Shown here piece after piece: positions 1 to 62,102 of a DNA stretch of 64,000 nucleotides. The notes under the pieces are model-generated. The model was given only the letters and a program-made list of their open reading frames with translations, was not told the DNA's origin and ran no database searches. This DNA comes from a virus. How positions within the stretch are numbered: the first letter of the stretch is position 1; each line of letters begins with the position of its first letter. Position numbers and translations under genes: made by a program. The stretch covers positions 62,001 to 126,000 of IMG/VR virus record IMGVR_UViG_3300043823_000198; one strand, given 5' to 3'.

Positions 1-1
1 G

Positions 2-1144
2 ACACATATAATTTCTAATGTATTATTCGATGCTTACACAATTACTGTTTCAACTGCAGCTACTGTTGCTGGTTATCAGGGTGGCGCTGGCTGGAGAGCT
101 TCCAAGAATGTACAGTTTGATGTTCTCAATCCAACAATTCAAATGCAAACATTCCCACAATGTACTACTAGCTTCTCAGCTAAGACTACTAGTGGCCAAT
201 CTATCAATGGTTCTGAGACACCATATATTACAAGCAGCACATTTAACCCATGCATAATTGGTAACAATAATAGTTACTATTCTCCACAGATGATCGCTTC
301 TTCTGTTAATGAAGCAGCGAATCTAAGTGGTAACAAGTCCTTGACATTCTCTGCCACAATGCAGACTAGCATTGATACTGTTTCTCCAGTAATCGATACT
401 ACTCGTGCAAGTTTAATCTGTATCAATAATGCGATTAACAAACCAACAGAGTCTAACACTGACTTGGCTGCTCTTGATGTTATCTCTGTATTCAGTGGAT
501 CTACTGGTGCATTTAACCTAAGTGGTTCTACTATTACATCTACTAACTACGCTGTTCGCGCAGCAATGGCAACCATTACTCCAGGCAGCTATATAACTAT
601 ATCAAGCGCAACAAATGCTGGTAATGATATTACTGTAATGGTAACTGGTTATTCTGATACCAACCCAGGAATCTTTACTTCTGGCTCCACTGGAACTGGT
701 ACTCTAACAGTGAATGGTTCATTCATTAGCGAGTCTACTTCTCCAGCAACAGTTTCTCTGCGTCAATTGTTTGTTGATGAAACTGGACCAAGTGGTAGCT
801 CATCAATTAGTAAGTATGTGACACAACCAATTAAATTGGCAGCAGCTTCTACATACACTAAGGTTATGTTCTCTGCAAATATTCCTATTGCAGCTAACGT
901 ACTGGTATATTATAAGACTTGCGTTGGAGACTCTTCTCAGTTGGCAACAACTGATTATGTGTTAATGACACCAGATTCTAATATTCCATACAAACAAGTC
1001 GGAGATCTATCGTTTAGTGATATTACTTACACTGTATCAAATGGTGTTCCATATGATACAATTACCATTAAACTTGTTATGAATTCAACTTCTAGTTCTC
1101 AAATTCCGTTAATTAAGGATTTCAGGGTAATTTCTTGTGCATAA
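2..1144 (+). CDS. C-terminal part of a large virion structural protein (5' end outside window)
   Basis: The reading frame is open from the first bases of the window to a TAA at 1142-1144, so the gene starts upstream; the ATG at 143 is internal. About 380 residues are visible. They are rich in Ser, Thr, Asn and Gly with few charged residues, typical of beta-structured tail or baseplate proteins. Downstream come a small coiled-coil protein overlapping by 8 nt and then a fibre gene, which supports a virion role. I do not recognise a specific family; a baseplate or fibre-attachment protein of the cyanophage-like T4 group is the best guess. No catalytic motif is visible. Confidence 0.6.
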   Translation, partial: THIISNVLFDAYTITVSTAATVAGYQGGAGWRASKNVQFDVLNPTIQMQTFPQCTTSFSAKTTSGQSINGSETPYITSSTFNPCIIGNNNSYYSPQMIASSVNEAANLSGNKSLTFSATMQTSIDTVSPVIDTTRASLICINNAINKPTESNTDLAALDVISVFSGSTGAFNLSGSTITSTNYAVRAAMATITPGSYITISSATNAGNDITVMVTGYSDTNPGIFTSGSTGTGTLTVNGSFISESTSPATVSLRQLFVDETGPSGSSSISKYVTQPIKLAAASTYTKVMFSANIPIAANVLVYYKTCVGDSSQLATTDYVLMTPDSNIPYKQVGDLSFSDITYTVSNGVPYDTITIKLVMNSTSSSQIPLIKDFRVISCA

Positions 1145-1376
1145 TAGATACTTGAAAGTCAGAGGATATGAGGGTCTTGTTAGAGACACCTCCTCTGGTG
1201 CTATTATAAATACAAATACAGCTGAACTGCAGAATTATTTACGCCAAAGAGAGTTGGCGGAACAAAAAGATCTTCAAATTTCTAAACAATCTGAAGACAT
1301 AAATAATATGAAAGAAGAAATTCAGGAAATAAAATCGTTGATTTATCAACTATTGGACACTAAGGGTAACAAATGA
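1137..1376 (+). CDS. small coiled-coil structural/baseplate-associated protein
   Basis: A 79-residue protein overlaps the preceding structural gene by 8 nt and the following fibre gene by 4 nt (ATGA). The N-terminal half (YLKVRGYEGLVRDTSSGAI) resembles a short conserved protein found in structural modules of T4-like cyanophages. From about residue 30 the sequence is a charged heptad-like helix (many E, Q, K with I/L spacing), predicting a coiled coil. It may link or trimerise fibre components. The function is inferred only from position and helix pattern. Confidence 0.6.
   Translation: MHNRYLKVRGYEGLVRDTSSGAIINTNTAELQNYLRQRELAEQKDLQISKQSEDINNMKEEIQEIKSLIYQLLDTKGNK
1205..1212 (+). promoter_or_regulatory. 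possible T4-type late promoter TATAAATA
   Basis: An exact TATAAATA lies inside the small coiled-coil gene, about 160 nt before the fibre gene at 1373. It matches the late motif recognised by gp55-type sigma factors, and a gp55 is encoded in this window. Exact matches are expected several times by chance in DNA this AT-rich, and this one is intragenic. Confidence 0.3.
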
Positions 1377-2608
1377 CAACATATACAGTAGGTGCACCAA
1401 CTCTGGTTTTAAGAGCTTCCAAAGGAAGTCCACTATTAAACTCAGAAGTTGATGCTAACTTTACCAATTTAAGTAATGCGGTACAAACATCTCTATTGGC
1501 AAGCACTTATACTGCTGCAGATGTTCTTTCTAAATTAAACTCTGTCACTGCATATAACCAATCTTCTGGTTTAAATGCTGACACTTTAACTTGGAATGGT
1601 GGCAATAGAGCTGCAAGTAGCGCCAATACAGCAAATACAATTGTTGCAAGAGATGGTAATGGAGCATTTACTGCCACTACTATTAACGCAACTACATTCA
1701 ATGGAACATTCTCTGGAACTGCTGCAATTACTTCTGGTTCTATCGCTTTAAGTACTGCCTTGGCAATTACTTCTGGTGGTACTGGAGCTACTTCTGCTTC
1801 TGCCGCAAGAACTAACCTTGGATTGGCGATTGGTTCAAACGTAGAAGCATGGAGCGCTAACTTAGATGCGCTTTCTGGAGTTTCTTCTTCTGCAAACGTA
1901 CTTCCATATTTTACTGGTGTGGGAACTGCATCTGTTACATCGTTCCCATCATACGCTCAATCTCTTGTAGGGTCTAGTTCTGCATCAGCTGCTCAGTCTA
2001 CTCTTGGTTTAGTTATTGGTACCAACGTTCAGGCTTATTCATCAAATTTGGCGGCAACATCTAGTGTTTCTTCTGGTATTATCGCAATGCAAGGAACAGG
2101 ATCTGCTTCTGGTGTAACAATCACGGCTGGCTCTGGTATCTCTGTTTCTAACGGTAACGGTGTTGGTGGTAACCCAACTATTTCTGCAGCTGTTACATCT
2201 GTTCAGGGTATGACTGGCGCAGTTTCTGTTTCTGTTCCTGTTACTTCTGTTCAGGGTATGACTGGAAATTTGACAGTTACTAATATTTCTGGTAGTGCTG
2301 GATACGCATCTTCAGCTGGATACGCATCTTCAGCTGGATACGCATCTTCAGCTGGTGGTGGATGGCCAGGTGCGTTATCATCATTCCATAATAACTTGGG
2401 TAACTATGGTGGATGGGTTCCGCATGGAAATAAGGGAACTGGCAACAACCCTAGCAATGCATGGGGGCGTAACGCTGGAGCATATAATCATGGTCATATT
2501 CCTGGTTCTCACCACTCATATAACTGTCACAATCAAATGCATTTAGACACAGGTCAAGGATTGGATCACTATCACCATTTCATTAATTGCAGAAATTGTA
2601 ACTGCTAA
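1373..2608 (+). CDS. tail fibre protein with His/Cys-rich C-terminal tip
   Basis: A 411-residue fibre-like protein. The N-terminal part (residues 1-50) has the SPLLNSEVDANFTNLSNA pattern found at the start of many phage fibre proteins. The middle is Ser/Thr/Gly-rich repetitive beta sequence. Residues about 310-327 are a triple GYASSA repeat. The last 80 residues are Gly/Asn/His-rich and end with closely spaced His and Cys residues (HNHGH-like, DHYHHF, CRNCNC). Such His-rich tips recall the metal-threaded HxH needles of T4-type long tail fibres, so this may be a host-binding tip coordinating iron or zinc; that is inference. The start overlaps the upstream stop by 4 nt. Confidence 0.75.
   Translation: MTTYTVGAPTLVLRASKGSPLLNSEVDANFTNLSNAVQTSLLASTYTAADVLSKLNSVTAYNQSSGLNADTLTWNGGNRAASSANTANTIVARDGNGAFTATTINATTFNGTFSGTAAITSGSIALSTALAITSGGTGATSASAARTNLGLAIGSNVEAWSANLDALSGVSSSANVLPYFTGVGTASVTSFPSYAQSLVGSSSASAAQSTLGLVIGTNVQAYSSNLAATSSVSSGIIAMQGTGSASGVTITAGSGISVSNGNGVGGNPTISAAVTSVQGMTGAVSVSVPVTSVQGMTGNLTVTNISGSAGYASSAGYASSAGYASSAGGGWPGALSSFHNNLGNYGGWVPHGNKGTGNNPSNAWGRNAGAYNHGHIPGSHHSYNCHNQMHLDTGQGLDHYHHFINCRNCNC
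2300..2353 (+). repeat. three tandem 18-bp repeats in the fibre gene
   Basis: The unit GGATACGCATCTTCAGCT occurs three times in a row without mismatch and encodes GYASSA x3 just before the His-rich fibre tip. Perfect identity suggests recent slippage; copy number could vary the shaft length. Confidence 0.9.
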
Positions 2609-2618
2609 GGAATAATAA

Positions 2619-3551
2619 ATGTCAATAAAATATGTAACCCAGAAAGTTGACCCATTAAGATTATCGTATCCAGGTAGATATGGAACACAGTCGTTTGTTT
2701 CTCAATCGTATGTCGATCAAACCACAGATCCAACATCAACATTTGAAGCTCAACTTAATACACCACAAGCGCAAAGAAAAACGACAACATCGAATTGGCA
2801 TACTACTCCAATTCAATTTGAGTATAAATTTGATACTGTTGATGCAAATAACATTCAAGTTACATTCACAAATGTAACTGAGAATAAAATATTTTTCACA
2901 TATATTATTAATTTTACTCAAACTCTTCTAAATACATTTGTTGCACAGACAGTTTATGGAGTAGCAACAGAGTATCATGCAGAAAATAATGGCAAAACAG
3001 AAGTTGTAAGTCCTGGAGATATTGTTAATTATTCTGATACTACATTTTCAACCAAAGATGAAGCGCCACATTTTGTTGGTAAATCTATTGTAAAATTCTT
3101 TTGCACAAAAAATAATCCAACAATCAATGATTTGATTTTTATGGTTTATGCTCCAGTGGCACCAAATGATCCTTCTGCGCCAAATACATATGGCGCACAA
3201 AATGTAGATCCAACATGGGCGCCACATACTATAACAGTCGATGGAACTGCAATTGATTCGACTTCTTTCGTAAAAGAAATTGCTTCTATTAAAGATTTAT
3301 TATATCCAATCACAACTTCTTACACTACTTCTGGAAATGTTATTACAGTTAATGTTACAACAAATCCAGCAATTACAGAAGTATATTTAAGTTCTACTGT
3401 TGGATATATTGCTAAGACTGTAGTTCCAATAACAAATGGAACTGGAACATTCAATGTTGTTACTACTGGCTTAAATTCTGGTGATGTTGTTAATGTTAAA
3501 ATTGGTTATAAATATTGGAGTAACGTAGTTACTTTTAATACAACAATCTAA
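2619..3551 (+). CDS. unknown protein, probably virion-associated
   Basis: A 310-residue protein preceded by AAGGAATAATAA, starting at ATG 2619. I do not recognise the family. The first 230 residues are mixed alpha/beta with several aromatic strands. The last 80 residues (from about 225) are Thr/Val/Asn-rich and look like an Ig- or fibronectin-type beta domain, common in phage surface proteins. There is no signal peptide and no catalytic motif. Its place between a fibre gene and the radical SAM cassette suggests either a virion component or a substrate of the neighbouring enzyme; neither is shown by sequence. Confidence 0.5.
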   Translation: MSIKYVTQKVDPLRLSYPGRYGTQSFVSQSYVDQTTDPTSTFEAQLNTPQAQRKTTTSNWHTTPIQFEYKFDTVDANNIQVTFTNVTENKIFFTYIINFTQTLLNTFVAQTVYGVATEYHAENNGKTEVVSPGDIVNYSDTTFSTKDEAPHFVGKSIVKFFCTKNNPTINDLIFMVYAPVAPNDPSAPNTYGAQNVDPTWAPHTITVDGTAIDSTSFVKEIASIKDLLYPITTSYTTSGNVITVNVTTNPAITEVYLSSTVGYIAKTVVPITNGTGTFNVVTTGLNSGDVVNVKIGYKYWSNVVTFNTTI

Positions 3552-3571
3552 TTTAAACAACTTGGAATGAT

Positions 3572-4963
3572 ATGGCGAAATTTGTTATAACTGTAAAACA
3601 CCCTGAAAAAGATGAACTTAAAAAAGTAGTATACGACAGCTCCATCAGTACCTTAACATGGGAAGATGGAACTCCTGTTGTAGAAAATACTCTTACTCAA
3701 GTAGAAGTTCAAAACCCTGCTAAAATTGAAAATGGAAAGAAAGACCTAAAGACTGTAAAAATACAGCTAGGTCTTTCATGCAATTTTGAATGCGATTATT
3801 GTAATCAGAGATTCGTACCTCATGCAGATTCAACTAATCCAGAAGACGTTCAGCCGTTCGTTGATAATATGTCTTCATGGTTTCCAGGTGGGAGGGATGG
3901 TTTAGGCAATGGTACTAAAATTGAATTTTGGGGAGGAGAACCATTAGTTTATTGGAAAACTCTAAAACCATTGGCAGAAGCATTAAGAGAAAAATATCCA
4001 AATGCAATTTTTGGTATAGTAACAAATGGTAGTTTGTTAGATTCAGAAAAAAATGCATGGTTAGACAGACTTGGTTTTGGAGTCGCAGTTTCTCATGATG
4101 GTCCAGGTCAATTTGTTCGAGGACCAGACCCTCTACTAGACGAATTATCAAAATCTGGAATTATTGAATTATATAAAATTCTTGCGCCTAAAGATAGGTT
4201 TACATTTAATTCTATGATCAACTCTAAAAATATTAGTAGAGCTGATATTGAACAGTTTTTTGTAAAATTTGTATCAGAAAATATCGGAGAAGAATATCTT
4301 GAATATTTAATAATTGGAGAGGGCGGTTTCGTTGATGCTTATGACGAAGGTGGAATGGCTAATTCTTTATTAGACGAAGAAGAAGATATTCGATATCGAA
4401 ATATTGCATTAAATGATCTTCGTTCTGGAAATGTAAAACGATTTGAAGTTATACAAAGCAAATATCATGAGTTTGCTAATACAATTATGAATGGTATTCG
4501 AATAGAATCAGTTCCACAAAAATGTGGTATGGACAAATCTAATCAGATGGCAGTTGATCTAAATGGTAATGTTCTGACATGTCAGAACGTCAGTGCTGTT
4601 TCTAATAATCCAGCAGGAGTTTCACATAAAATTGGACATGTTTCTGATTTATCTTCTGTAGAATTAAAGACAGCCACTCATTGGAGCGATAGAAGCGAAT
4701 GCCCAAACTGCCCAGTAGTTCATATATGCAAAGGAGCATGTATGTTTCTCAGTGGTGATCTTTGGGAAGCGAGTTGTAACAATGCGTTTAGCGACAATAT
4801 TTTAATATTCACTCTTGCTATTGAAGATGCTACAGGTGGTTGGATTCCAGGATATATTGATGGTCCATTAAGGGAAGATAGAAAAGATATCTACTGGTGG
4901 ATCAACGGTAAGCCAGAAAAAACACGAAAAGCAAAGAAATTTATTCCTATAATGGCGGTTTAA
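3572..4963 (+). CDS. radical SAM/SPASM-domain enzyme
   Basis: A 463-residue radical S-adenosylmethionine enzyme. The cluster-binding CxxxCxxC is at C70, C74 and C77 (SCNFECDYC), followed by the SAM-contacting GGEP motif at 121-124. The C-terminal part carries a complete SPASM signature: C318-x13-G-x4-C337, then C377-x2-C380-x5-C386-x3-C390 and C402, which should hold two auxiliary [4Fe-4S] clusters. SPASM enzymes usually modify peptides or proteins, as in sactipeptide synthases and sulfatase-maturing enzymes. The substrate here is unknown; the next small protein and the flanking virion proteins are candidates. Arginine codons are mostly AGA, AGG and CGA, unlike the downstream binding-protein gene. 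Confidence 0.9.
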   Translation: MAKFVITVKHPEKDELKKVVYDSSISTLTWEDGTPVVENTLTQVEVQNPAKIENGKKDLKTVKIQLGLSCNFECDYCNQRFVPHADSTNPEDVQPFVDNMSSWFPGGRDGLGNGTKIEFWGGEPLVYWKTLKPLAEALREKYPNAIFGIVTNGSLLDSEKNAWLDRLGFGVAVSHDGPGQFVRGPDPLLDELSKSGIIELYKILAPKDRFTFNSMINSKNISRADIEQFFVKFVSENIGEEYLEYLIIGEGGFVDAYDEGGMANSLLDEEEDIRYRNIALNDLRSGNVKRFEVIQSKYHEFANTIMNGIRIESVPQKCGMDKSNQMAVDLNGNVLTCQNVSAVSNNPAGVSHKIGHVSDLSSVELKTATHWSDRSECPNCPVVHICKGACMFLSGDLWEASCNNAFSDNILIFTLAIEDATGGWIPGYIDGPLREDRKDIYWWINGKPEKTRKAKKFIPIMAV

Positions 4964-4964
4964 T

Positions 4965-5234
4965 ATGAGTTACATTGACGGATATTTGGTTGAGATAAAT
5001 CAGTTTCCAAGATTTGGAGAAAGGTTTACAATAAAAAGTTATTTCTATTACAACTCAAATACAAAAGAATATGGTTACAGGGATACAGTTATCCCAAAAG
5101 AACAAATTATAAATAATGATGATATGACGGAAGAATTAGTTGCAAACATTATAAATAATAATATACCTGCAATGAGAAGGGTCATTGACCCAATAAATTT
5201 AACAGAAAGTTGGATTTTTGAGCCAACAGCATAA
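4965..5234 (+). CDS. small unknown protein in the radical SAM cassette
   Basis: An 89-residue protein starting one base after the radical SAM stop. It is mixed alpha/beta and tyrosine- and asparagine-rich, with no Cys, so it is not a classical sactipeptide precursor with thioether-forming cysteines. It lacks a signal peptide or membrane segment. Tight spacing suggests translational coupling and a role as partner, recognition protein or substrate of the enzyme, but no family is recognised. Confidence 0.6.
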   Translation: MSYIDGYLVEINQFPRFGERFTIKSYFYYNSNTKEYGYRDTVIPKEQIINNDDMTEELVANIINNNIPAMRRVIDPINLTESWIFEPTA

Positions 5235-5244
5235 GGAAAACAAA

Positions 5245-6192
5245 ATGAATTCTAAACATGTAAAATGGGTTATTGCTCACGAACCTATTGGTTTGTTTTT
5301 AAAAGTAGCCGAACATTTTGCTAAAGAAGTTAACGAAAAAACCAACGGTATGTTTAATATCGAAGTTCTTTCATTGTCTGATTATACAGCAAAATACAAT
5401 GATGGCAAAGCAATTACCAAGTATGATCTAATGGAATTGATCAATACTGGTAAGATCGAAATGAGTCACATCTATACCACTTGGCTTGGCGATTATAACA
5501 AAGATCTACATGCTTTAGATCTACCATTCCTATTCCGCGACCATGCTCATGCTGACGCTGTTTTAGAAGGTGAGGTTGGTGCTGAGTTATTAGCTGGCGT
5601 TTCTAAGAATAGCAATATCCATGCTATGTCTTTCACTTACTCTGGTGGTTATCGTGTTGTTCCAGCGAACTTCCGTGCTGACACTGTTGAGTCATGGAAA
5701 GGTCAAGCTGTTCGTACTTCTCGTTCTCCAGTTGCTGTTGAAACATTCAAGCTACTTGGCGCTGAACCAAAAGAGAACATCGCTCTAGAAGAAATGAACG
5801 AATTTGCCGATCGTGGCGAAATCGCTGCTGGTGAATCAACATACGTTCGTATTTTCCCACTCGATCAATATAAGTCGTTCAAGGTTGTTAATGACACTGC
5901 TCACAGCTTGTTCTTAACTTCTATTATTGTTAACAAAGATTTCATGGCTCAATTCGATAAGCAGACTCAAGAGATTATGGCTCAGGCTGCATTTAATGCT
6001 GCTCGTGCTGAACGTCGCGAATCTGTTGCTGATATTCCTAACATTCTTGCTGAATGTAAAGAGAAGGGTGTTGAAGTTGTTCGTATGAATGAAACCGAAG
6101 AGAAGAAATTTAAAGAGATTACTTCTAAGGTTTATGATGTCTTCGCTGATTATTTTACACCTGGACTTGTGCATAAGATCCAATTACATTAA
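5245..6192 (+). CDS. TRAP-type (DctP-like) solute-binding protein lacking a signal peptide
   Basis: A 315-residue protein with DctP-family features: the N-terminal FAKEVNEKTNGMFNIEVLS pattern, the LDLPFLFRD segment around residues 90-100, and the WKGQAVRTSRSPVAVETFK region with the conserved binding arginine. In bacteria these proteins are periplasmic and deliver carboxylates to TRAP permeases. Here the mature domain begins at once (MNSKHVKWVIAHEP), with no signal peptide, and no TRAP membrane subunit is nearby, so it should stay in the cytoplasm or join the virion. I chose ATG 5245 because AAGGAAAA precedes it; an in-frame start at 5218 is less likely. All arginine codons are CGT/CGC and a strong terminator follows, both pointing to high expression. 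Confidence 0.85.
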   Translation: MNSKHVKWVIAHEPIGLFLKVAEHFAKEVNEKTNGMFNIEVLSLSDYTAKYNDGKAITKYDLMELINTGKIEMSHIYTTWLGDYNKDLHALDLPFLFRDHAHADAVLEGEVGAELLAGVSKNSNIHAMSFTYSGGYRVVPANFRADTVESWKGQAVRTSRSPVAVETFKLLGAEPKENIALEEMNEFADRGEIAAGESTYVRIFPLDQYKSFKVVNDTAHSLFLTSIIVNKDFMAQFDKQTQEIMAQAAFNAARAERRESVADIPNILAECKEKGVEVVRMNETEEKKFKEITSKVYDVFADYFTPGLVHKIQLH

Positions 6193-6210
6193 TCTGAATG
6201 ATGATAAATA

Positions 6211-6233
6211 AAGGGAGCTTCGGCTCCCTTTTT
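6211..6233 (+). terminator. strong intrinsic terminator with TTCG tetraloop
   Basis: The hairpin GGGAGC-TTCG-GCTCCC, extended by A-T pairs and followed by a run of T, lies 18 bases after the binding-protein stop. Its 16-base core is identical to the terminator behind the major capsid gene at 30309. Confidence 0.95.
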
Positions 6234-6248
6234 ATTTTGAGGAAAATT

Positions 6249-7295
6249 ATGGAACAAGATTTTAAAGAATCAATTTTATACTATGATAAGAAGAATGTGT
6301 CTAATTTTGCGCAAAACGATTATACAAAAATTTATAGATTTTTGAATCCAATCACGGATTATAAAGTTTTTCACACATATCTAAGACTTGGTTTAATGGA
6401 ACACAATGCTGTTTATGATAGGAGTGGAGAAATCCCACACTTTCTTAATATGGCAGAAGATTTACATCCATTACCAAAACACATAGAAGGTTATAACAAA
6501 TCTTTTTATGAAGTCGCAGAAAATAGAGCAAAAGAACTACTAGCGTTAAATCAACCGATTAATGTTATGTGGTCTGGTGGTCTTGATAGCACATTCGCAT
6601 TGTTCATGTTACGTAAATTTGCAAACGACAAAGATCAAGTTCGAGTATATGGAACATATAACTCTATCATTGAATCTGGCGACATGTTCGACCGTGTCAT
6701 TAAAGATAATTTCAAATACGAGATATCAACTGCAACACGCAACGACTTAAATTTAAATTCTGAAGGAATTTACGTTAGTGGTATGTGTGGTAATCAATTG
6801 TTTGGTCCAACAGATGATATGTTTGGTAATAATATGTTATTTCATCATACACTTGGAACACCTGAAACAATTTATGAATCATATGAAAAAAATATTGATC
6901 CAGAGTTACTTGAATTTTTATATCCAGCAATTAAGGTTAGCCCAAGAAAAATTGAAACAGTTGCAGATTTAAGATGGTATTGTATATTTAATTTAGACTG
7001 GTATACAGCAATATACGAACATAAAATTTTATTACCAAAAGAAAAAGCTGAGAAAATTTATGGATTTTTTGATTCTATTGAGTTTCAGGAATGGGCTGCT
7101 AACACAAAAGAACCTTTTACAAAAGTGCAAGGAGATCCAAATACTCATCGCTGGCAAATGAGAGAGATTCTTAGTGATATTTTTGGTGAAGTTGAATATG
7201 CAAAAAATAAAGAAAAGAAAATCTCTAATTTTTCAATAACTGAACCAGGCTGGATTGCGCTTTTAGAAGATTATCGAAATGTTTTTATCGATTAA
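6249..7295 (+). CDS. PP-loop (ATP pyrophosphatase superfamily) protein
   Basis: A 348-residue protein with the PP-loop motif SGGLDS at residues 109-114 (MWSGGLDSTFALF). This is the ATP-binding signature of N-type ATP pyrophosphatases such as asparagine synthetase, QueC and GuaA, which adenylate a carbonyl or carboxyl before amide or related bond formation. The N-terminal 100 residues are not a recognisable glutaminase. The substrate is unknown. ATG 6249 follows GAGGAAAATT and lies after the terminator, so the upstream in-frame ATGs around 6198 are rejected. It completes a cassette with a radical SAM enzyme and a binding protein. Confidence 0.75.
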   Translation: MEQDFKESILYYDKKNVSNFAQNDYTKIYRFLNPITDYKVFHTYLRLGLMEHNAVYDRSGEIPHFLNMAEDLHPLPKHIEGYNKSFYEVAENRAKELLALNQPINVMWSGGLDSTFALFMLRKFANDKDQVRVYGTYNSIIESGDMFDRVIKDNFKYEISTATRNDLNLNSEGIYVSGMCGNQLFGPTDDMFGNNMLFHHTLGTPETIYESYEKNIDPELLEFLYPAIKVSPRKIETVADLRWYCIFNLDWYTAIYEHKILLPKEKAEKIYGFFDSIEFQEWAANTKEPFTKVQGDPNTHRWQMREILSDIFGEVEYAKNKEKKISNFSITEPGWIALLEDYRNVFID

Positions 7296-7315
7296 TAGCA
7301 TTAAATTGCATATAT

Positions 7316-7323
7316 TATAAATA
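7316..7323 (+). promoter_or_regulatory. T4-type late promoter TATAAATA
   Basis: An exact TATAAATA lies in the intergenic gap, 31 bp before the structural gene at 7354. With the usual T4 spacing, transcription would start near 7329, giving a leader of about 25 nt. The position makes this one of the best late promoters in the window. Confidence 0.7.
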
Positions 7324-7353
7324 AAAGGGTATAGAAACATTGGGAAATAGTAA

Positions 7354-7686
7354 ATGGCGACAATTAGCAACCTTTTTGTTGATGCGGGGAGCGACTACAG
7401 CAACATAATTACTGTTGCTGGAAGTAATGGCCAAGCATTGAATTTGACTGGTTATACTGTGGCTTCTCAGATGAGAAAGTCATATCTTTCATCGACTTCA
7501 TATCCATTTACAGCTTCAATTTACAATGCTACAACTGGTCAGGTAAGTATACAGTTATCTTCTGCTTCTTCAGCTGCTATGTGGCCAGGAAGATACCTTT
7601 ACGATGTAGAAATAACATCACCGTCTGGAACACGAACAAGAGTCGTTGAAGGCATTGTAACAATTACCCCTGAGATAACAAAATAA
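7354..7686 (+). CDS. baseplate/fibre-adaptor-like beta-domain protein
   Basis: A 110-residue all-beta protein. The pattern of strands (LNLTGYTVASQMRKS, then ATTGQVSIQLSS, then WPGRYLYDVEITSPSGT, ending in VTITPEITK) resembles the N-terminal domain of baseplate upper proteins (BppU-like) that anchors receptor-binding proteins. It follows a late promoter and shares its last base with the next start, so it is the first gene of the fibre operon. The BppU relation is by pattern only. Confidence 0.6.
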   Translation: MATISNLFVDAGSDYSNIITVAGSNGQALNLTGYTVASQMRKSYLSSTSYPFTASIYNATTGQVSIQLSSASSAAMWPGRYLYDVEITSPSGTRTRVVEGIVTITPEITK

Positions 7687-40738: not shown

Positions 40739-40784
40739 TATTGTATAAATTGATTGAAAGTTGTATTATATTATGGAGAATTCT

Positions 40785-41933
40785 ATGGCCAAATTTGATG
40801 TTGCGTTCCAGTCCCAGTTTGAAAATACTCTAAATGAGATGTATCCTGATGTTCAAACAAAAGGTTCAGTTACACGTTCCCAACTGATTGAAGTGATGGA
40901 AAAGATCGGTACCAAAACTTATCCAACATGGTTGATGGAAAATAAAATCGGTCGTGGCTTATATGCGATTGGTGGTAAACCTGCTGTCGTTGGTAACACA
41001 GCTTTAAAAGAGAAAGAATCATTTGTTGTGGACTATACAGATACAGAATCTTTGATCCCATCCAAGGATCCAAACTTTGTTCCTTTCGGTAACTATACTG
41101 ACCTTGACTCAATCATCAAGGCAAAATTATTCTACCCTGCATACATCAGTGGTCCAACTGGTAATGGTAAATCTACCATGATCGAGCAGATCTGCGCGAA
41201 ACACAAGCGTCCTCTGATTCGTGTTAACTTAAACATGATGACAGATGAAGAACAACTCATCGGTACCAAAACCCTTGAAGACGGTAACGTAAAAATTGTT
41301 GAAGGTCCAGTTCTTATCGCAATGCGTACTGGTTGTACCCTGTTGCTTGATGAAATTGACGCTGGTTCAGCAAACACTTTGCTTTGCTTACAACCTATTC
41401 TTGAGGGTAAACCTTATTACTTCAAACTTAAGAACGAGATGATCGTTCCTGCTCCTGGTTTCAATGTGTTCGCAACTGCCAACACAAAGGGTAAAGGTTC
41501 AGACGATGGTCGTTACATCGGTACAAACGTATTGAACGAAGCATTCTTGGAACGTTTCGCAGTTACCTTTGAACAAGACTATCCAAACTCAAAGGTGGAA
41601 TTGAAGATTATTGAGAATCTGATGATCTCTTTTGGTTGCGAAGATAAAGAGTTCGCAGAAACATTGGTAAAGTGGGCAGATGCAATTCGTCGCACTTTTG
41701 CCGATGGTGGTGTCGATGAGACAATTACAACTCGTCGTATGATTCACATTGTTCGTGCTTATGCAATCTTCAAGAAACGTGAGAAGGCTGTTGAGCTTTG
41801 CTGTAATCGTTTTGACTCTGCAACAAAAGCAGCGTTCATTGACCTTTACGATAAAGTTGCAACTCCTACTCCAGATCCTGTAGTTGTACCCGAACCCATT
41901 CCTGCAACACCTTCAGATGAAGTGCCATTTTAA
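40785..41933 (+). CDS. cobS: CobS/MoxR-like AAA ATPase
   Basis: A 382-residue AAA protein of the CobS/MoxR type: Walker A GPTGNGKS at 123-130, Walker B LLLDEIDAGS at 187-195, and sensor/arginine regions following. The first 65 residues form a separate small domain with YPTWLMENKIGRGLY, also found in the next gene product. The usual name cobS comes from aerobic cobaltochelatase, but the partner here is the VWA protein upstream and cobalamin synthesis is not shown. ATG 40785 follows ATGGAGAATT; upstream in-frame starts are less likely. The tail is Pro/Val-rich. Confidence 0.88.
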   Translation: MAKFDVAFQSQFENTLNEMYPDVQTKGSVTRSQLIEVMEKIGTKTYPTWLMENKIGRGLYAIGGKPAVVGNTALKEKESFVVDYTDTESLIPSKDPNFVPFGNYTDLDSIIKAKLFYPAYISGPTGNGKSTMIEQICAKHKRPLIRVNLNMMTDEEQLIGTKTLEDGNVKIVEGPVLIAMRTGCTLLLDEIDAGSANTLLCLQPILEGKPYYFKLKNEMIVPAPGFNVFATANTKGKGSDDGRYIGTNVLNEAFLERFAVTFEQDYPNSKVELKIIENLMISFGCEDKEFAETLVKWADAIRRTFADGGVDETITTRRMIHIVRAYAIFKKREKAVELCCNRFDSATKAAFIDLYDKVATPTPDPVVVPEPIPATPSDEVPF

Positions 41934-60748: not shown

Positions 60749-62102
60749 TGAGCAGTACTGTAGAAAAGTTATTCCATTTATCAAGAACGAATACTTTTCG
60801 GACAGGAAAGAAGCAATTCTTTCAAAGATAATTACTGACTTTTTTACGAAGTATAATAAACCACTAACAAAAGAAATCCTTTCGATTGAAGTTGGTAATA
60901 GAACTGACATAAACAACAAAGAACTTACAGAATTAAACACATACATTGACACACTGACCCATGAAGAAGTTAATGATTCATGGATGATTGAGCAAACTGA
61001 AAAGTTTTGTAAAGATAAGGCAGTATATAATGCAATTCTACACTCAATTAAAATCATCGATGGAGGAGATAAGATACACACCAAGGATTCAATTCCTTCT
61101 ATCCTCTCTGACGCTCTTGCCGTTTCTTTTGATAGCCATGTTGGCCATGATTACCTCGAAGACAGTAACTCTCGTTACGAATTTTACCATAGGGTTGAAG
61201 AAAAAATTGCTTTCGATTTGGACATGTTCAACAAGATTACTAAGGGTGGTCTTTCAAAGAAAACATTGAACATTGCTTTGGCTGGTACTGGAGTTGGTAA
61301 GTCTTTGTTTATGTGTCATGTTGGCGCATCTGTTCTGATTCAGGGAAAGAATGTTCTGTATATTACAATGGAAATGGCTGAGGAACGTATCGCTGAACGT
61401 ATCGACGCAAACCTTTTGAATCTAACAATGGATGAGTTGAAGGTTATCGACAAAGATATTTTCGACAGTCGTCTTCAAAAGATTTCCAAGAAAACGCAAG
61501 GTAAATTAATTGTCAAGGAGTATCCGACTGCTGGCGCTCATGCTGGACACTTCCGTGCTTTGCTTGAAGAACTTAAACTTAAGCGTGAATTTACTCCAGA
61601 TATTATCTTTATCGACTATCTTAACATCTGTGCCAGCCATCGTATGAAACAGGGAGCCAATGTAAACTCTTATACATATATTAAGAGTATCGCTGAAGAG
61701 TTGCGTGGTTTGGCTGTTGAATATAATGTTCCAATTGTTTCTGCCACACAAACAACCCGAAGCGGATACACTAATAGCGATCCAGGACTTGAAGATACTT
61801 CAGAGTCTTTTGGGTTACCAGCCACGGCTGACTTTATGTTTGCGTTAGTTTCAAATGAAGAACTCGAAGCGTTGAACCAGATTATTGTTAAACAGTTGAA
61901 GAATCGTTACAATGATCCAAGTTTTTATAAGCGTTTCGTTGTTGGGATTGATAGATCCAAAATGCGATTATATGATGTTGAAGCATCTGCTCAGGTAGGA
62001 TTGGCTGATTCTGGTCAAGAAAAACCTGATGTTCCTATGTTTGATAAGAGCGAATTTGGTAAACGTCAAAGGTCAGAAGGCTTCGATGGGTTTAAGTTTT
62101 AG
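60708..62102 (+). CDS. 41: replicative helicase gp41-like
   Basis: A 464-residue DnaB-type helicase (T4 gp41 475). Walker A is AGTGVGKS at 192-199, Walker B IIFIDYLNIC, and VSATQTTRSGY is motif H3-like. Residues 1-150 are the helical N-terminal collar domain. It unwinds DNA at the fork and acts with the primase gp61. I choose ATG 60708, inside the previous gene; a TTG 48 nt upstream is possible. Confidence 0.95.
   Translation: MRIETKILSNLIYDEQYCRKVIPFIKNEYFSDRKEAILSKIITDFFTKYNKPLTKEILSIEVGNRTDINNKELTELNTYIDTLTHEEVNDSWMIEQTEKFCKDKAVYNAILHSIKIIDGGDKIHTKDSIPSILSDALAVSFDSHVGHDYLEDSNSRYEFYHRVEEKIAFDLDMFNKITKGGLSKKTLNIALAGTGVGKSLFMCHVGASVLIQGKNVLYITMEMAEERIAERIDANLLNLTMDELKVIDKDIFDSRLQKISKKTQGKLIVKEYPTAGAHAGHFRALLEELKLKREFTPDIIFIDYLNICASHRMKQGANVNSYTYIKSIAEELRGLAVEYNVPIVSATQTTRSGYTNSDPGLEDTSESFGLPATADFMFALVSNEELEALNQIIVKQLKNRYNDPSFYKRFVVGIDRSKMRLYDVEASAQVGLADSGQEKPDVPMFDKSEFGKRQRSEGFDGFKF

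Follow-up and report, generated by a model that had tools for sequence, protein, structure and literature searches.

Phage radical SAM/SPASM enzymes are paired with Asn-Cys repeats of tail-fibre-type proteins and may cross-link them, beside a separable gene trio

The stretch of DNA analysed here (the window) comprises 64,000 nucleotides of a T4-like phage, positions 62,001 to 126,000 of the 165.6-kb virus record IMGVR_UViG_3300043823_000198 in IMG/VR. It encodes a radical S-adenosylmethionine (SAM) enzyme with a SPASM domain, followed by genes for an 89-residue protein, a DctP-family binding protein, and a PP-loop protein (together, the trio). At the gene level, the enzyme is paired with a repeat of asparagine and cysteine (the Asn-Cys repeat) carried by fibre-type proteins encoded upstream of it. 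We consider it probable that the enzyme cross-links the Asn-Cys tip of the fibre as one unit and that the trio is a second, separate unit that handles a carboxylate. A preliminary description of this DNA had suggested that the SPASM enzyme modifies a phage protein; this is now very probable, and the candidate substrate is the Asn-Cys tail of the fibre protein that gene 1373–2608 encodes. The same description treated the four genes as one cassette, a view that finds no support in that form: enzyme and Asn-Cys fibre occur without the trio, and trio genes occur without the enzyme.

The enzyme carries the radical SAM cluster motif CX3CX2C (C70, C74, and C77) and a full SPASM set of seven cysteines for two auxiliary clusters (C318-X13-G-X4-C337, C377-X2-C380-X5-C386-X3-C390, and C402). 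All ten are invariant among 53 relatives sharing 37%–100% identity, so that the core and cysteine set described earlier are borne out. The score against the TIGR04085 SPASM model lies above its cut-off (32.3 versus 27 bits), and that against Pfam Radical_SAM lies just under (28.3 versus 29.5 bits). The enzyme groups with PHROG 1802, and its nearest curated NCBIfam families are SPASM peptide maturases, thioether-forming ones (PapB) included.

Homologues of the fibre encoded 5′ of the radical SAM gene end in Asn-Cys repeats—for example, NCNCNCNC before the stop codon. In a second clade, the repeat is absent from the fibre and present on a separate protein of ~125 aa; other phages encode small fibre proteins in tandem, two or three of them, each with a terminal repeat. 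Carriers take the form of fused fibre tails, of separate proteins of ~125 aa, of ~90-aa proteins in tandem triplets, or of proteins of 130–175 aa. They are fibre-type proteins of ~81–480 aa in which the repeat is C-terminal or nearly so, not short precursor peptides with a leader, and the repeat is the feature common to all carriers seen. Single-linkage clustering of the carriers yielded three clusters in which most low-complexity fibres were merged, and it was not used as a count of origins.

An upstream Asn-Cys protein is present in 122 radical SAM loci; the 13 loci without one all have ≤1.5 kb of upstream sequence, and every relative with more than 1.5 kb has such a protein. Many of the contigs are environmental, partial, and related, and locus counts throughout include overlapping and duplicate contigs. 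The reverse test was a DNA scan for CNCNCNC-stop, a longer form of the repeat, in viral contigs and prokaryote genomes. Among the viral contigs it returned 46 loci, 43 of them in real frames; three matches (L077, L086, and L100) were excluded as unreal because their frames are <30 aa, and the L077 contig nonetheless carries the enzyme plus a different, adjacent Asn-Cys protein. The enzyme lies on the same contig for 40 of the 43 real-frame repeats; of the three remaining contigs, two end <100 bp from the repeat. Bacterial and archaeal genomes (257 Gb) likewise gave 46 matches, only two of which (L120 and L124) are in fibre-like frames; the enzyme adjoins the repeat in both of these and is absent from the other 44. 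The L120 and L124 contigs are binned as Prosthecobacter and Beijerinckiaceae, with fibre and lysozyme-like genes around the pair, and both pairs are probably phage or prophage.

A gene outside the system, the conserved neighbour that starts at 7354, served as a neutral anchor and gave 47 loci with sufficient upstream sequence. Enzyme and repeat are both present in 26 and both absent from 21, with no discordant locus after inspection. L161 had been missed by the initial repeat pattern, its fibre ending in NCRNCNC. L192, a candidate enzyme without a repeat, was rejected, the match being a remote radical SAM protein of another family on the opposite strand. The naive exact probability of this pairing is 8e-14, a value to be read with the relatedness of the loci in mind. 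At least four independent enzyme/repeat switches fall on well-supported branches of the anchor-region tree, each as one unit.

The pair is also found in Achromobacter phages JWF and 2-1, whose PHROG 1802 proteins, annotated without function, are 42%–43% identical to the window's enzyme and keep its cysteines. In these phages, the fibre two genes 5′ of the enzyme has ANCNCDCNCSC or QNCNCDCNCNCSC directly before a Hint domain. Hint domains usually self-cleave; if the usual cleavage occurs, the repeat would become the C-terminus of the fibre, as in other phages. Unlike in the window, no DctP, PP-loop, or 89-aa gene adjoins the enzyme.

Between fibre and enzyme, the window encodes a 310-aa partner protein with the C-terminal motif GSFxVxTxGLxxGDxVxVKxGxKxW. 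The profile of this C-terminal domain matches in 105 of 135 radical SAM loci; all 21 enzyme-less anchor loci gave no match, and the second clade has diverged below threshold. Partners in the second clade and in the Achromobacter phages are diverged or unrelated, and the Asn-Cys repeat is still there. At loci without the trio, other enzymes often sit between the fibre and radical SAM genes. One to three genes of 2-oxoglutarate–Fe(II) (2OG-Fe(II)) oxygenase type occupy this position at L037:6160–7995, L097:5979–7821 (minus strand), and L084:9076–9717 as well as in L095 and L124, and at L208:3225–4732 two fatty acid desaturase genes separate the gene of an Asn-Cys protein from that of the radical SAM enzyme.

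From the pairing we infer that the SPASM enzyme would act during infection, inside the host cell, on the C-terminal Asn-Cys repeat of the fibre, where it would probably form thioether cross-links between cysteine sulfurs and carbons of the repeat. Such links may give the fibre tip a rigid, oxidation-proof cap, or they may staple fibre chains together. The partner protein would belong to the same unit, perhaps as a fibre chaperone, adaptor, or cap. The arrangement resembles that of the thioether maturases of ranthipeptides (PapB), sactipeptides, and SCIFF peptides, which have in common with it the radical SAM core, the full set of SPASM cysteines, and a dedicated cysteine-rich substrate encoded next door. 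As in systems for ribosomally synthesised and post-translationally modified peptides, the cysteine-rich candidate substrate adjoins the maturase and is found only with it, contig L088 excepted. The proposed substrate differs from that of PapB-type maturases in being the tail of a large virion protein rather than a short leader–core peptide. Unlike peptide maturases, moreover, the window has no fold resembling a precursor peptide recognition element (RRE) in the small protein adjacent to the enzyme, the one partner that this comparison covered. Another parallel is QhpD, the SPASM maturase of quinohemoprotein amine dehydrogenase, which introduces thioether links within a protein subunit. The QhpD profile matches the window's enzyme at 9e-12, but with 44 of 453 bits, which is under the cut-off; QhpD serves a single bacterial enzyme subunit, whereas the proposed targets here are viral tail-fibre proteins with repeats.

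Around these genes lies a T4-like virion block with terminase, sheath, portal, and major head protein genes, and a DNA polymerase gene follows further along. Tail-fibre-type genes flank the radical SAM gene and the trio on both sides, in agreement with the earlier placement inside the virion block, and the genes from 1373 to 7686 are all on the plus strand (Table 1). The 89-aa open reading frame starts one base past the radical SAM stop codon, as had been noted before, and the terminator described between the DctP and PP-loop genes was recovered. The order of the four genes is kept in ~25 viral contigs, and the arrangement is therefore not due to chance. A gene at window positions 1–1144 is apparently cut by the window start and has tail proteins of ~1000–1900 aa as relatives. 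Further along, a CobS-like ATPase gene (PHROG 249, 40761–41933) has 14 of 14 arginine codons of the form CGY, a bias equal to that of the capsid and sheath genes.

Table 1. Features of the window around the radical SAM/SPASM gene (positions are those of the window).
Feature	Position	Strand	Basis
Tail-fibre-type protein, 411 aa, ending ...FINCRNCNC	1373–2608	+	PHROG tail fiber matches
Asn-Cys repeat tail NCRNCNC, immediately 5′ of the stop codon	2585–2605	+	Sequence
Partner protein, 310 aa, conserved C-terminal domain	2619–3551	+	C-terminal profile
Radical SAM/SPASM enzyme, 463 aa, relative of PHROG 1802	3572–4963	+	Profiles, cysteine motifs
89-aa protein, beta-rich small fold; goes with the DctP/PP-loop module	4965–5234	+	Alignment, model, fold searches
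Signal-less DctP-family binding protein, 315 aa	5245–6192	+	Pfam DctP, codon use
Intrinsic terminator between the DctP and PP-loop genes, 9-bp hairpin (6210–6231) and T run	6210–6239	+	z = -3.5
PP-loop protein, 348 aa, no glutaminase domain	6249–7295	+	PP-loop motif, fold
Neutral neighbour gene, 110 aa, conserved, PHROG 1084/tail-fibre assembly type; outside the system	7354–7686	+	

The DctP gene product matches the Pfam family DctP (PF03480) over its full length (E = 1e-40; 140 bits against a cut-off of 23.4), and no signal peptide was found in it or among the ~77 viral relatives listed, as the preliminary description had said of the window's protein. Arginine R157, kept in 22 of 23 aligned sequences, aligns with the ligand-contacting arginine of the family. 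CGY codons make up 87% of arginine codons in DctP genes (28 loci), compared with 43% in radical SAM, 10% in 89-aa, and 23% in PP-loop genes; in the window's DctP gene the count is 11 of 11, similar to the sheath and capsid genes. Because this codon use matches that of highly expressed genes, DctP is probably made in large amounts, and the terminator 3′ of the gene fits this. These viral relatives differ from typical TRAP binding proteins in lacking an export signal, in having the codons of highly expressed genes, and, in the window, in having no permease at the locus.

The PP-loop gene described earlier does encode the motif, SGGLDS, at residues 109–114, with SGGxDS invariant in 26 sequences. 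Its start, in turn, has been moved from 6198 to the ATG at 6249, the most likely one, because a reading frame from 6198 would run through the terminator. The model of the protein (predicted local distance difference test score [pLDDT] 92) has as nearest folds the synthetase domain of carbapenam, beta-lactam, and asparagine synthetases, a partial similarity (Foldseek E 1.6e-4, TM ~0.4). No Pfam family matches the window's protein, 18 of 26 relatives show weak Asn_synthase matches, and the nearest sequence profile, nitrile synthetase, matches in the PP-loop region only. The SGGxDS loop is shared with the beta-lactam and carbapenam synthetases of the asparagine synthetase B class, to which the best, partial fold matches also point, but the N-terminal glutaminase domain of that class was not found in the 348-aa protein. 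The 89-aa protein is modelled (pLDDT 85.7) as beta-rich with one helix, a fold on which its candidacy as an RRE (a PqqD-like winged helix) was rejected, and the model has no significant match among solved or viral structures. The most likely role of the trio is to bind a small carboxylate and activate it: abundant cytosolic DctP would bind it, and the PP-loop synthetase would activate a carboxyl group with ATP to give an amide or similar bond.

The trio is a module separate from the enzyme and Asn-Cys pair. Within the anchor set it is present in 23 of 26 radical SAM loci and missing from all 21 loci without the enzyme. Across loci it takes three operon positions: 3′ of the radical SAM gene, 5′ of it (L029/L059), and, in L106, between the partner gene and those for the Asn-Cys proteins. 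Many phages nevertheless have the enzyme and an Asn-Cys fibre without the trio, and 37 sampled loci with good flanks have DctP and/or PP-loop genes, with or without the 89-aa gene, in the absence of enzyme and repeat; the combinations are the whole trio, the DctP/PP-loop pair, the 89-aa/PP-loop pair, or a single gene. The preliminary description had named independent occurrence of the four genes in related phages as one observation that would speak against a link; such independence is seen for the trio and not for the enzyme and its proposed substrate. Relatives of the PP-loop and 89-aa proteins were absent from the annotated phage collection, and a single-sequence scan of viral contigs for the PP-loop protein gave no matches, its relatives surfacing only with an alignment query.

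Genes for TRAP or tricarboxylate transporters lie within the locus at 20 of the 37 loci without the enzyme, compared with none of 69 radical SAM loci; those confirmed by Pfam are DctQ, DctM, and exported DctP (L364), TctA (L372 and L297), and TctC (L048, L054, and L303). They give indirect support to the earlier idea of a small carboxylate as ligand of the binding protein. In L364 (662–6954) and L366, a phage-borne TRAP transporter is complete: genes for DctQ, DctM, and exported DctP adjoin those for a signal-less DctP and for two or three PP-loop proteins, near T4-type structural genes. In other phages without the enzyme (L372, L379, L381, L390, and L297), TctA and TctC-type binding proteins adjoin DctP or PP-loop genes. 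A beta-keto acid cleavage enzyme (L048:12077–15002, minus strand) and short-chain dehydrogenase-like and AMP-binding ligase genes (L345:6978–10065, minus strand) are also encoded near DctP, possibly as part of a phage-borne acid-degrading pathway. A small conserved protein (RSLGKVVTWRILVTITNFxGGW) recurs beside DctP/PP-loop genes, at L320:7921–8196 (minus strand), L345:10146–10409, L349:7027–7260, L248:4557–4787, and, as a reverse-strand copy, in L106.

These neighbours, the transporters together with the AMP-binding ligase and beta-keto acid cleavage enzyme, make it a real possibility, if somewhat short of an even chance, that the trio is an auxiliary metabolic module for carboxylate uptake and use, inserted at a permissive site and without a role in the virion. 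That account is compatible with the explanation offered for the radical SAM enzyme; it is opposed by the lack of such transporters at all 69 radical SAM-linked copies and by the three positions of the trio inside the fibre operon, which suggest a link to the fibre genes. The second unit has in this lineage been built into the fibre operon and may add a tailoring step. We extend this only tentatively to a scheme in which unrelated tailed phages share a dedicated way of maturing receptor-binding fibres after translation. An Asn-Cys tag would suffice, on any fibre protein, to recruit a SPASM enzyme for cross-linking of the tip; further groups would come from tailoring genes specific to each lineage, whether desaturases, 2OG-Fe oxygenases, or an AsnB-like ligase with a carboxylate-binding DctP, giving a partly non-standard, chemically made tip.

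Several points weigh against thioether cross-linking of the tip beside a separate trio. The enzyme reaches no NCBIfam maturase cut-off, PapB being best with 58 of 340 bits, and with scores so far below these cut-offs its reaction is not assignable by family. The window's own repeat (NCRNCNC) is short, and adjacent Asn and Cys residues, if linked to each other, would need small rings. The 23.7-kb contig L088 has the repeat, no enzyme was found on it, and it stands as an unexplained exception. Counts overstate independence, many loci being on related or duplicated contigs, and no more than four to five independent switches are forced on the anchor tree. A direct role of the trio in fibre modification is possible, with proximity as its basis. 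It is also conceivable, though unlikely, that the enzyme alters the repeat otherwise, by epimerisation to D-residues or another C-H modification: the outcome of catalysis is not legible in a sequence, and regular alternating repeats would suit a repeated stereochemical change. Cross-linking is favoured instead by a complete SPASM domain that has sites for two auxiliary clusters, by cysteines in every repeat that resemble thioether-forming pairs, and by the thioether maturases among the closest profiles.

A single obligate pathway of all four genes, building and attaching a modification on a phage protein, would account for their conserved order, for the distribution of the trio in the anchor set, and for its three positions within the fibre operon; it is rather improbable in view of the many enzyme–fibre pairs without the trio and of the whole trios, pairs, and single genes at the 37 loci without the enzyme. 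Least credible is a metal- or cluster-binding Asn-Cys tip with an enzyme that serves another operon target such as the partner protein: clustered cysteines can bind metals and the partner likewise co-occurs with the enzyme, yet the partner is diverged or replaced at some radical SAM loci where the repeat is retained, and it is the repeat that all carriers share.

In the open-licence literature searched, there was no report of Asn-Cys repeats or of tail-fibre maturation by radical SAM enzymes. Radical SAM genes of Campylobacter phages (PMC2853527) and of pelagimyophages (PMC7029224) are treated, in the passages on them, as metabolic or cassette genes without a link to an Asn-Cys fibre. The trio raises a question separate from that of the fibre: it indicates a large viral family of TRAP-type binding proteins that are not exported and that pair with a PP-loop synthetase. 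If the proposed cross-linking is true, an unassigned family of phage enzymes would gain a function and the Asn-Cys repeat would be a portable modification tag, a question addressable in the cultivated phages JWF and 2-1. Virion maturation in some phages would then include a so far unreported layer, the chemical remodelling of tail-fibre tips by a radical enzyme, with possible effects on adsorption, particle stability, or oxygen tolerance.

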